From a virus: a DNA stretch of 20,185 nucleotides. The position numbers were made by a program, and so were the translations under genes. Location: positions 1 through 20,185 of the IMG/VR virus record IMGVR_UViG_3300006803_000128; one strand, given 5' to 3'. This document shows positions 9,141 to 16,132 of the stretch, one piece after another. The notes under the pieces were generated by a model, which searched no databases, was not told where the DNA came from, and was given only the letters and a program-made list of their open reading frames with translations. Each line of letters begins with the position of its first letter. Position 1 is the stretch's first letter.

Positions 9141-10604
9141 TTATTTAATCGGGTTCCTCGGCATTGGTGGCGCTATACCAACAGGCATAGGCTTGCCTGT
9201 GCCCGGATTAACAATTGCGCCACTTGCTATTTGAGGTGGTGGCGGTGGGCCACCTAATCCTGCAAATGGTGCGAGTGGGGCCATTGGTACAGGAGCTCCG
9301 TACCCACCAAACTGCACTTGTGGCACAGCAGATGTCGGCATTTGGAAGCCCGGATACCCACCTTGTTGTATGTTTGAACCTGCTTCCATCATGCGCTGTG
9401 TATAATTCTCACGCACCCCAGGGTCAAAAGACTGCCCAAGTATGTTGGTAGGCACATACGTTTCACGCACACCCTGCAACGGATCCATGCTCACAAACTG
9501 TGGAGGTGGTGGGGCAGAGGGTGCGGGTGTAGCAGTGGGTGTAGTAGATTTAGAAAAAATGTCTTTAGCGGCATCTATAACCTCTTGAGGTATTTCTTTT
9601 GGCCCTTCATCAGGCATTGCTGCTTTGTACTTAAATTTTGGAAGCTCAACCTGCCCAGCGCCTGGTATATCTACCACTGTAGGAGCGGAGATTGCTTGTC
9701 CTGCAACAATTGCAGCGGCATCTGCGCGTATTTCATCAGCAGTTTTTGCTTTCGCTTGTTTTTCTGCCGTTTGTTCCTGCACAACCCTTGTTGCATCTTG
9801 AACTTCTTTTGCAAGAGCCAACAGTTTACTTGAACTTGTTTTTGGATCAGCAGCTGCCTCTCTCAACTCTTGCGCTTTAGCGGCGAGTTCTGTGGGAGTG
9901 ATTATGGCTGCTGGTGGAGTAGCCGCAACAACAGGTTCTGCCTTTGGTGGTCCAGGCTCGGCAACTTTTGTGGCTGGAGGTGTGTACCTGCCGCCAGTTG
10001 CCTTGGTCACTGCTTCAGCAATCTCATCTCGTGTAGGTGTTTTGAAGTCTGGCAACAAAACTCTTTTTTCTAAATCTTTTAAAATTTCCTGAATCTTTTC
10101 TTTGTCAGGCAAAGCTATCTTGGGCGCGTCTTCTGTAATGCGAATGGGCTTTGGAGGCACAGGTGCTTCAGAGCCAGGGCCACGGCCTATATCAATTTTA
10201 GATTCTGCAGCAGCCTTTGCTTCTGCGTCTGCTTTGGCCTTAGCCTCTTTCTCAGCCTTAGCTTTGGCTTCTTTCTCTTTTCGCTTTTTCTTTGTCTCTG
10301 CAAGCAACGCTTCAGCTTTCTTCTTGGCTTCAGCAGCACCCGCTATATTGCGATCAGCTTGTTCTTTCTTGAGCTTGTCACGCTTTTTTTCAGCAGCAGC
10401 GCCTTCATCTGTAGGATAAAGCTTTTGAACCTGTCTCTGACCAGCTTCGCCAAAGAGCGCAGGCACATACTTGCCTGTCTCTGGGTTCAGTATTTGTTTT
10501 TGACGGCCACCACTGCGCTGCCATTTCTGCAACGCCATCCTGCCCCGAACACCACGAGAACGAGGTTTGGGTATCTTGACCGTGCGATACTTAGGCTCAG
10601 CCAT
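9141..10604 (-). CDS. Large disordered Ala/Lys/Pro-rich virion-cluster protein
   Basis: A 487-residue protein. The N-terminus is basic (KYRTVKIPKPRSRGVRGRM). Residues about 65-135 are a highly charged Ala/Lys/Glu helix (KKRKEKEAKAKAEKEAKAKA) like TolA-type stalks. Residues about 140-370 alternate Pro-rich linkers with short helices. The final ~120 residues are Pro/Gly/Gln-rich with FGGYGAPVPMAPLAP and GLGGPPPPP. No enzyme motif is visible. It lies between portal-proximal basic proteins and the co-chaperonin. Possible roles are an internal (ejected) protein, an assembly organiser or a packaged DNA-binding factor. The amino-acid bias is real in this frame and is kept from end to end, so the ORF is credible. 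I do not recognise a family. Confidence 0.6.
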   Translation of the reverse strand: MAEPKYRTVKIPKPRSRGVRGRMALQKWQRSGGRQKQILNPETGKYVPALFGEAGQRQVQKLYPTDEGAAAEKKRDKLKKEQADRNIAGAAEAKKKAEALLAETKKKRKEKEAKAKAEKEAKAKADAEAKAAAESKIDIGRGPGSEAPVPPKPIRITEDAPKIALPDKEKIQEILKDLEKRVLLPDFKTPTRDEIAEAVTKATGGRYTPPATKVAEPGPPKAEPVVAATPPAAIITPTELAAKAQELREAAADPKTSSSKLLALAKEVQDATRVVQEQTAEKQAKAKTADEIRADAAAIVAGQAISAPTVVDIPGAGQVELPKFKYKAAMPDEGPKEIPQEVIDAAKDIFSKSTTPTATPAPSAPPPPQFVSMDPLQGVRETYVPTNILGQSFDPGVRENYTQRMMEAGSNIQQGGYPGFQMPTSAVPQVQFGGYGAPVPMAPLAPFAGLGGPPPPPQIASGAIVNPGTGKPMPVGIAPPMPRNPIK

Positions 10605-10613
10605 TTGACGTTC

Positions 10614-10805
10614 CTAGTAGATGCCAGAAAACTTCTTACCACGCAGCGCAGCGCCAAAGCCACGCATTTCACCCGCGCCATAAGGCTTGGATGTAGTCGG
10701 TGTGGCTACAGATTCTTCTTTTGCGTAGTTAACAGTGCCTTGGTCTTTGATGCTGACTTTGCTGTCAGTGACCTTGGGCTGTGGAAAACTGGTTTGTCTT
10801 TTCAT
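10614..10805 (-). CDS. 63-aa protein ending in an RGxGAALRG motif
   Basis: A 63-residue, probably unstructured protein. Its last 18 residues (EMRGFGAALRGKKFSGIY) resemble the C-terminal tails of the two basic proteins at 14310-14831 and 14831-15808 (RGVGxAxRGYGKALK). The start overlaps the previous stop as TAATG and the stop is TAG, just before the next gene's AGGAAC site. Role unknown; the shared tail suggests all three bind the same partner. Confidence 0.55.
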   Translation of the reverse strand: MKRQTSFPQPKVTDSKVSIKDQGTVNYAKEESVATPTTSKPYGAGEMRGFGAALRGKKFSGIY

Positions 10806-13619: not shown

Positions 13620-14300
13620 CTACTCTCTGTCTGCGTACAAATTATCAAAGATCTGTCGCGTATCCAGAACGTAATCTAAATCGGACTTGCTGTAATGTAT
13701 ATGCTGAGATGGCTTAAAGTCTGGGGCACCCTCACCTGTCTCAAACCACGCAGGATGCGTGACCCTCACCCTGTTATTGGGCAAGGCTACAATATTTCCC
13801 GTCCACTCACCAGCATCTAACAACTCCATCACATGGCTTTGCTTGTGCTGCGCAGGATCATCTGCAATCTCGTTCTCTGCATAATCCACAGTGAACAAAT
13901 ACTTCGCAGGGTAAAAATCACCATCGATCTTCGCAAGCCACGGGCATGGCGTTGCACGATCTAGAACATATACAGCGTGAGTGTGACTAGAACAGTCCCA
14001 AGGCTGGGCATGATGTACCGCCATAGGTTCTGGCCATTCGTCCAGGGGGGTATCCGCAACAAGCGCGGTGATTGGCATTCTTGCCCACATGGCCCCGCCG
14101 TGGACGTTGGATTCTTCCTCATCATCATCCGATTCGCAGCCCGTAAAGATCACCTGAAAACTCAAGCACCTCGTGGGCATGGTGGTGACGGCGATAACCA
14201 TGGCGTGTAAAAAATCTCCATGGTATCGCTCGTGATTGACAGTATATTCCCTTCTCACCCACGCCTTGAAATGCGGGATGTTGCTTTGTAGATAGGGCAA
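13620..14300 (-). CDS. Conserved phage protein, unknown function
   Basis: A 226-residue protein with a TTG start at 14300; AAGGA lies 7 bases upstream. It is rich in His, Trp and Cys for a phage virion-cluster gene. Visible segments are LQSNIPHFKAWVRREYTVNH, NVHGGAMWARMPITALVADT, AQPWDCSSHTHAVYVLDRAT, CPWLAKIDGDFYPAKYLFTV, NNRVRVTHPAWFETGEGAPD and FKPSQHIHYSKSDLDYVLD. These invariant-looking Trp/His/Pro blocks suggest a folded globular protein, perhaps an enzyme or a lattice-binding head protein. I recall the same protein between terminase and portal in many marine phages, always unnamed. It ends 17 bases before the portal start. No function is assigned. Confidence 0.68.
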   Translation of the reverse strand: MPYLQSNIPHFKAWVRREYTVNHERYHGDFLHAMVIAVTTMPTRCLSFQVIFTGCESDDDEEESNVHGGAMWARMPITALVADTPLDEWPEPMAVHHAQPWDCSSHTHAVYVLDRATPCPWLAKIDGDFYPAKYLFTVDYAENEIADDPAQHKQSHVMELLDAGEWTGNIVALPNNRVRVTHPAWFETGEGAPDFKPSQHIHYSKSDLDYVLDTRQIFDNLYADRE

Positions 14301-14309
14301 AACTTTTCC

Positions 14310-14831
14310 TTATTTTAATGCTTTTCCGTAACCTCTCATCGCAACACCTACTCCACGAGGCTTTGTTTTGTTGCGAGATCGTGTGGTCTTACCTGCAACC
14401 GTTTTGGCTGCAGAGGCTAGACCGCCGTTGGCTTTTTTGACAGGGGTAACTCTTCTGCCGGTTTTCGTGTTGTAGGTTACACCTCCAACCTGAAAAGTTT
14501 TTTCTCCTTTAAGCTCTGCTTCATCTCTGGCTTTCCGAACTTTGTCACCTAGCTTTATCCTAGGCTCAGACATTTTGTTCAACCCCTGCCCCATAAATAC
14601 GCCACCAGGGATGGCGACAGCTGCTACAGCCCCAACTTCTTTTGCTTTTTGTTTATTTTTTTTATCTCTCTGTCGTTGTCGAAATGATGGTTCCCTGATT
14701 GCAGATCTCATGTCTCTGCGAGAAGAAGGCTCAGCAGTGTCTTGTGTCTTCTTTGCTCGTGCCTTCTGCGCTGCAGTCATCAGCTTTTGACGCGCTTTAG
14801 TAATACCCTTCAGTAATTTTGGCTTACTCAT
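14310..14831 (-). CDS. Basic low-complexity protein, module-sharing member 1
   Basis: A 173-residue, strongly basic protein. Residues 1-65 are Lys/Arg/Gln helix (ARQKLMTAAQKARAKKTQD). Residues 66-84 are a short hydrophobic Gly/Ala/Val stretch (VGAVAAVAIPGGVFMGQGL) that may insert in a membrane or pack in a core. Then comes GEKTFQVGGVTYNTKTGRRV, related to a segment in the next protein. A linker with KANGG follows, and the last 17 residues are KPRGVGVAMRGYGKALK. The start overlaps the previous stop (TAATG). Role unknown; perhaps an ejected internal protein or a packaging accessory. Confidence 0.6.
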   Translation of the reverse strand: MSKPKLLKGITKARQKLMTAAQKARAKKTQDTAEPSSRRDMRSAIREPSFRQRQRDKKNKQKAKEVGAVAAVAIPGGVFMGQGLNKMSEPRIKLGDKVRKARDEAELKGEKTFQVGGVTYNTKTGRRVTPVKKANGGLASAAKTVAGKTTRSRNKTKPRGVGVAMRGYGKALK

Positions 14832-15808
14832 TATTTCAACGCCTTGCCGTATCCACGAAGCGCAGCACCCACACCGCGTGGCTTGCGTGATACCGCGCCA
14901 CCCTTGGAGTAACCCTTCTTGGCCATGCCGCCTTTCGCATAACCTTTCTTCGCCATGCCACCGTTCTTCATGCGCTCCATACGCTTTTCACTGGCTCGTA
15001 CTTGACGTTGCTTTTTGGCTGCAGGAGTCTGCCGAGTGTACTTGGTTTCTTCAGCCCGTCGATCTGCTTCAGCAAGCTTCTTCTGCGTAGGCGTCTTCTT
15101 AGCCTTAGTCGGCGTAAGACCTGAAGTTTTGTTGGTGTCCTTTATGGCTTTATTGAGAGCGGCTTTACCGTACTCCTTTTCAAAAGCCCTTCTACCAAGC
15201 TTCGATAGCTCTCTGACCATATTCACAACTAGGTCGCCCTTGCTAAACCCAGGGACTCCACGAGCCTTGAGTATGTCTTTCTGCGTGACCCTTCCATCAC
15301 CCGTCATATCAGGGAACTTGCTCGCAGAACCACCAGCCTTCATCCCACCGGGCATCATCATCTTCTTGCCGCCTTTAGCGCCACCCTTAGATGCCATTTT
15401 AGATTTCATCATGCCGCCCATGGCCTTTCCAGCAGGCTTGGGCCGACGATTCGGGCCACTTGCAGGAGAACCAGCTACTTTTTCTTTTCTCTTAGGTCTG
15501 GACTTACCCGGAAGGAAATCAATTGCACCGCGTGCTCCTCCAAACTTGCCGTCATCGCCCAACAAGAACTTACGAATGCCGCCAACCTTCTTCTTGGCTG
15601 CAGGCTTCTTGGCAGCAGCAGTACGCTTGGCTTTCTCTGTGTCTAATTCAGTGGTGTATTTCTTGCCGTTCCAAGTAAACGTCTTGGCACCCTTGTTTCG
15701 GTGATGACGGAAAGACTCCTTGAACGGAACACCACCCTTGCTTACGCCGACGTTGTATTTCTTCTTGGCGGCAGTGGTTGGTTTTTCTGCAGGGGTGTCT
15801 TTTTTCTT
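14831..15808 (-). CDS. Basic EF-loop protein; ORF has no start codon at its apparent N-terminus
   Basis: A 325-codon open frame that follows the TAG of the upstream gene without a shift. It reads KKKDTPAEKPTTAAKKKYNV and so on, and has no ATG, GTG or good start for 80 codons; TTG codons at 15568 and 15565 lack a ribosome site. Yet residues 18-56 look conserved (YNVGVSKGGVPFKESFR; KTFTWNGKKYTTELD), so the N-terminal region is real coding sequence. GGGGGAG lies 8 bases before codon 1 (AAG), where ATG would be expected. Residues 167-178 match an EF-hand/dockerin loop (DMTGDGRVTQKD). The rest is Lys/Gly/Met-rich, with AKKGYAKGGMAKKGYSKGG repeats and the end KPRGVGAALRGYGKALK. A lost start, a sequencing error, or an amber-interrupted fusion with the upstream gene all fit. 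Confidence 0.6.
   Translation of the reverse strand, partial: KKKDTPAEKPTTAAKKKYNVGVSKGGVPFKESFRHHRNKGAKTFTWNGKKYTTELDTEKAKRTAAAKKPAAKKKVGGIRKFLLGDDGKFGGARGAIDFLPGKSRPKRKEKVAGSPASGPNRRPKPAGKAMGGMMKSKMASKGGAKGGKKMMMPGGMKAGGSASKFPDMTGDGRVTQKDILKARGVPGFSKGDLVVNMVRELSKLGRRAFEKEYGKAALNKAIKDTNKTSGLTPTKAKKTPTQKKLAEADRRAEETKYTRQTPAAKKQRQVRASEKRMERMKNGGMAKKGYAKGGMAKKGYSKGGAVSRKPRGVGAALRGYGKALK
15275..15310 (-). other. EF-hand/dockerin-like calcium loop
   Basis: Codons for DMTGDGRVTQKD give Asp, Thr, Asp at loop positions 1, 3, 5, Gly at 6, a hydrophobic Val at 8 and Asp at 12. This is the canonical 12-residue calcium loop; the last position is Asp, as in dockerin loops. It is followed by ILKARG, which resembles an exiting helix. 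One loop alone may be structural. Calcium binding is inference. Confidence 0.5.
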
Positions 15809-16132
15809 CTATTTATCTCCCCCAAACAAGCTCATAGCGCCGACGCCGCCTGCACCAGCTGCAATGCGCTTACGTCCAGACCTAGCAACAGCAGCGCGTT
15901 GTCCTCTGGTGGCCATGCGAGATCCTGTGCCTTTACCCGTTTGTTCAAGACCAAAACCTTTACCAAGATTGCGAGTAGATGTTTCAGGTAGGCGCTTAAC
16001 ACCTTGGGCCTTTTTACCGCCCGCCCGAATTGCAACACCTTGCTCTAGTTCACGAGCGGCTCTTGCTGCTCTTTGTGCTCGTGCTTTAGCTCTTTGACCA
16101 AGGCTTACCGCCTTTTCTGCTCTCTTTACCAT
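15809..16132 (-). CDS. Small Arg/Ala-rich protein directly after terL
   Basis: A 107-residue basic protein with ATG at 16132. GAGGAG is 7 bases upstream and starts at the TerL stop, so the two are co-expressed. Residues 1-32 are Ala/Arg/Lys helix (AKARAQRAARAARELEQGVA). The middle is Gly/Thr/Arg-rich (NLGKGFGLEQTGKGTGSRMA) and the end is GAGGVGAMSLFGGDK. No motif is known to me. The gene's amber stop lies in frame with the next reading frame, so what is drawn as two genes may once have been, or may be, one. A packaging accessory or internal protein is possible from place alone. Confidence 0.6.
   Translation of the reverse strand: MVKRAEKAVSLGQRAKARAQRAARAARELEQGVAIRAGGKKAQGVKRLPETSTRNLGKGFGLEQTGKGTGSRMATRGQRAAVARSGRKRIAAGAGGVGAMSLFGGDK

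Follow-up and report, generated by a model that had tools for sequence, protein, structure and literature searches.

Organization of the locus

The DNA analysed here, hereafter called the window, is a viral stretch of 20,185 nucleotides (IMG/VR record IMGVR_UViG_3300006803_000128). On its minus strand, the terminase large subunit gene precedes a frame (16132-15809) that starts with ATG, has a Shine-Dalgarno-like GAGGAG sequence on its 5′ side and encodes 107 amino acids. This frame ends with the amber codon TAG at 15811-15809. Immediately 3′ of the TAG, and in the same phase, another frame of 325 codons (AAG counted) opens on AAG (15808-15806) and closes at the TAA at 14831; its earliest ATG, GTG or TTG is the TTG at 15565. 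The minus-strand letters across the junction are TTTGGGGGAGATAAATAGAAGAAAAAAGACACC. An earlier note on this DNA had described a long frame opening on AAG without a start codon, an upstream gene stopping at TAG in the same phase, and a GGGGGAG sequence 8 bases 5′ of the AAG, and our re-reading of the minus strand agrees with it on all of these points. The features of the region, which is flanked by the gene for the terminase large subunit and by the next KGG-rich gene, are as follows.

14831-16132, minus strand: very probably a single gene, interrupted in the window; the intact product has 433 amino acids in the sister contig (continuous ORF in L055; homologues L004, L056 and L006)
15812-16132, minus strand: N-terminal part, 107 amino acids, rich in Lys, Arg and Ala; the sole product expected if the TAG terminates translation
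15809-15811, minus strand: TAG at codon 108, where the sister contig and a more distant relative both read GAG (Glu)
14831-15808, minus strand: C-terminal part, 325 codons and stop, without a start of its own; contains the YNVGVSKGGVPFKE..KTFTWNGKKYTTEL module, the EF-hand-like DMTGDGRVTQKDIL, KGG repeats and the KPRGVGAALRGYGKALK tail
15817-15823, minus strand: GGGGGAG, with a chance likeness to a Shine-Dalgarno sequence; codes for Gly-Gly-Asp and is identical in both relatives, with no start after it

Elsewhere in the window, at 10604-10616, a 63-amino acid gene (10805-10614) also stops at TAG, in the phase of the 487-amino acid gene that comes next, and both the TAG and the frame relation are found in a relative. 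This arrangement looks ordinary, as the 487-amino acid gene opens on an ATG of its own, with AGGAA upstream of it.

Codon 108 in related contigs

Scanning IMG/VR with the downstream frame yielded the sister contig IMGVR_UViG_3300025508_000352 (L055), which overlaps the window by 6,016 bases and is 99.6% identical to it, with 27 differences. None of these lies in the first 4,374 bases, and all 27 fall within the following 1,642. The very first is the T/G difference at 15811, where the window reads TAG and the sister reads GAG (Glu), and an uninterrupted ORF of 433 amino acids runs across the site in the sister. A more distant relative, IMGVR_UViG_3300025168_000962, which is 81-93% identical to the window over the long aligned segments, also carries GAG at this site, within the identical peptide GGDKEKKKDTPAEKPTT, and is the same as the sister over about 75 bases around the GAG. 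Close alignment over codon 108 is available from these two contigs only: when viral_contigs was scanned for the junction pattern with the first base of the codon left open, two contigs matched, both with GAG. GAG is the codon at position 108 in L055/L002 and L057/L067. Moreover, the codons 3′ of the TAG differ between the window and the sister only synonymously, except in one small tail block, and the frame was therefore kept as coding sequence until very recently. A further window-only G-to-T change relative to both relatives lies at 14214 and converts Glu to Asp in a 226-amino acid gene; both this position and 15811 belong to the part of the overlap in which the window and the sister diverge.

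More distant homologues are likewise continuous. L004, L056 and L006 carry continuous homologues of the gene, and in L056 and L006 no stop occurs anywhere in the N-terminal part, in the YNVGVSKGGVPF...FTWNGKKYTTEL module or in the KPRGVG.A.RGYGKA.K tail. Among the distinct relatives that bear the FTWNGKKYTT module and have a 5′ stop in view, all 55 have a Met 5′ of the module in that same uninterrupted frame; for 46 of them the distance from this Met to the module is 80 codons or more. Homology to the relatives reaches upstream of both AAG 15808 and TTG 15565, contrary to the possibility, raised in the earlier note, of homologues that start near 15565 with no conservation upstream. Judging from these comparisons, the adjacency of the two frames is more than a matter of chance, since they are jointly homologous to one continuous ORF in the relatives.

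The region 16132-14831 is very probably one phage gene with a single-base GAG-to-TAG change (Glu108 to amber) in this contig, which would have arisen as a recent point mutation or as a consensus or assembly error, and not as a programmed signal. The alignment of homologues over the junction, which the earlier note had proposed, gives one gene, with GAG in both contigs that align. One of its options, a fused Lys-rich protein split by a change of AAG to TAG, was correct as to the fusion, seen in the 433-amino acid ORF of the sister, and incorrect as to the ancestral AAG, as both aligned relatives have GAG. In the proposed scheme, one base would have turned the GAG of codon 108 into TAG, and only this contig carries the amber. 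Should the base be real, we infer that translation would halt at the TAG after 107 residues, leaving the module-bearing C-terminal part unmade, apart from trace read-through, and that the accessory gene would have been recently inactivated, with loss of its function. Two other routes to the junction were rejected: insertion of one base into an ATGA in which stop and start overlap, since the junction differs from the sister by one substitution, and a frameshift on the A-rich AAAAAAG 3′ of the TAG, since the relatives need none. For annotation, the region is better recorded as one interrupted gene than as two genes or a recoding event, and a single close sister contig can resolve such a case of an “ORF without a start”.

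Alternative readings of the amber codon

Could the two frames be separate genes, the second having either lost an ATG by change to AAG or taken the AAG or TTG 15565 as its start? The GGGGGAG located 8 bases 5′ of the AAG would fit such an arrangement. However, the relatives carry this AAG as a Lys codon inside a continuous ORF, the GGGGGAG is conserved as coding sequence, and the homology extends 5′ of both candidate starts, which makes the two-gene arrangement extremely improbable. The lost start that the earlier note had considered fails in particular because neither the sister nor the more distant relative offers a start at this point; both read a sense codon. The earlier note had preferred amber read-through, in which functional read-through or suppression yields a short form of 107 amino acids and a long form of 433 amino acids. 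The frame does stay open for 325 codons past the TAG, and a UAG followed by A, as here, can be somewhat leaky. Against this stand the sense codon at the site in the relatives, the failure to find any tRNA gene, suppressor or other, in the window and two related contigs (all three being fragments), and the folding of the RNA 3′ of the stop, which is no better than that of shuffled sequences (z of -0.9 and -1.1, in a test that does not cover pseudoknots). A conserved stop codon with flanking coding sequence is absent, as both contigs aligning over the site read a sense codon. With the TAG in this contig only, read-through is thus unsupported and very unlikely. A true amber allele that the host partly suppresses, so that the strain carrying it would make a head-region accessory protein in a short and a long version, is likewise highly unlikely. 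A literature search on phage read-through returned nothing on this case. Reassignment of TAG found no support, in agreement with the earlier note, because TAG is the ordinary stop of six other window genes, namely the portal gene, whose stop is TAA in the relative, and five others.

In programmed read-through, exemplified by the leaky UGA of the Q-beta coat/A1 protein, a stop is likewise followed by a long in-frame extension, while the relatives of the window gene have a sense codon, and neither a conserved stop, nor a conserved context, nor RNA structure is found. Some crAss-like phages are TAG-recoded and carry a suppressor tRNA; they share with the window an in-frame TAG within a gene, whereas the window has one such TAG only, no suppressor tRNA was found in the contig fragments covered, and TAG is the normal stop in six genes. 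The gene also resembles naturally occurring nonsense (amber) alleles and pseudogenes among the accessory genes of phages, in which one base changes sense to amber, the frame is otherwise intact, sister genomes keep the sense codon and the gene is seemingly dispensable; the difference is that the TAG of the window may instead be a consensus error. Be it a mutation or an error, the split of this gene is very probably not a new way of making proteins.

For the single-base GAG-to-TAG change itself, we regard a young nonsense allele as about as likely as a consensus error. We give roughly an even chance to a real, recent nonsense allele that segregates in the phage population with loss of the accessory gene. 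This fits the finding of no homologue in related isolates, which carry other genes between terminase and portal, and the genuine strain variation between the window and the sister in this neighbourhood. Nevertheless, the allele is seen in one contig only, and the downstream frame has not decayed; the allele, if real, must therefore be very young. The chance that the TAG arose as an error of consensus calling or assembly, with GAG in the phage itself, falls a little short of even. The restriction of the TAG to this contig is consistent with such an error, as is the type of change, since G-to-T is frequent among damage and sequencing errors and the change at 14214 is a second window-only case. 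In addition, the TAG sits where the divergence between the window and the sister begins, and strain variation there hampers assembly. On the other hand, comparison with the more distant relative reveals no interruption, by frameshift or nonsense, in the other aligned sense-strand genes of the window, and the contig is therefore not generally error-rich.

Gene role and shared sequence modules

By their terminases, the closest isolates are the HTVC023P-type pelagiphages, with 57-60% amino acid identity to the window terminase; the window portal is 45% identical to that of HTVC023P. The core genes that PMC9599517 names for this type include the terminase and GroES, and the window likewise has the related terminase large subunit and a GroES co-chaperonin gene. 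A term search of PMC9599517 gave no hit for the portal or for stop codons. In contrast to the window, HTVC023P and HTVC027P have other genes in the terminase-portal interval, and a search of 50,697 phage records, these two Pelagibacter phages included, found no homologue of the gene at 16132-14831. Its loss should therefore be tolerable, and by this comparison the gene looks accessory. Searches of PHROGs, Pfam and NCBIfam assigned the gene to no significant family, and a homology search of bacterial genomes gave only two weak matches to the module. Its basic, low-complexity composition and its location among the clustered head genes hint at a protein that may associate with the virion or with DNA.

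Several parts of the gene recur elsewhere. The YNVGVSKGGV(P/S)F.EAF.H.R..G.KTFTWNGKKYTT module (15640-15757), for which PHROGs, Pfam and NCBIfam gave no significant match, is common across uncultivated phages in diverse protein contexts: it is N-terminal in L049 and L051, and internal or C-terminal in others. The FPDMTGDGRVTQKDIL sequence at 15269-15318 resembles a calcium loop of the EF-hand or dockerin type, and FPDLTGDGKVT-like sequences occur within small separate genes in the relatives L006 and L048. The C-terminal tail KPRGVG.A.RGYGKALK is common to the adjacent genes 16132-14831 and 14831-14310 (tails at 14870-14893 and 14310-14409), and recurs in neighbouring genes of the relatives. 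The differences between the window and the sister cluster in the tails of these two genes, and the sister tail variant AAKTITSGTTRSRN resembles L014, which belongs to another phage lineage. This clustering, together with the L014-like variant of the sister, suggests that tail-to-tail recombination may have occurred.
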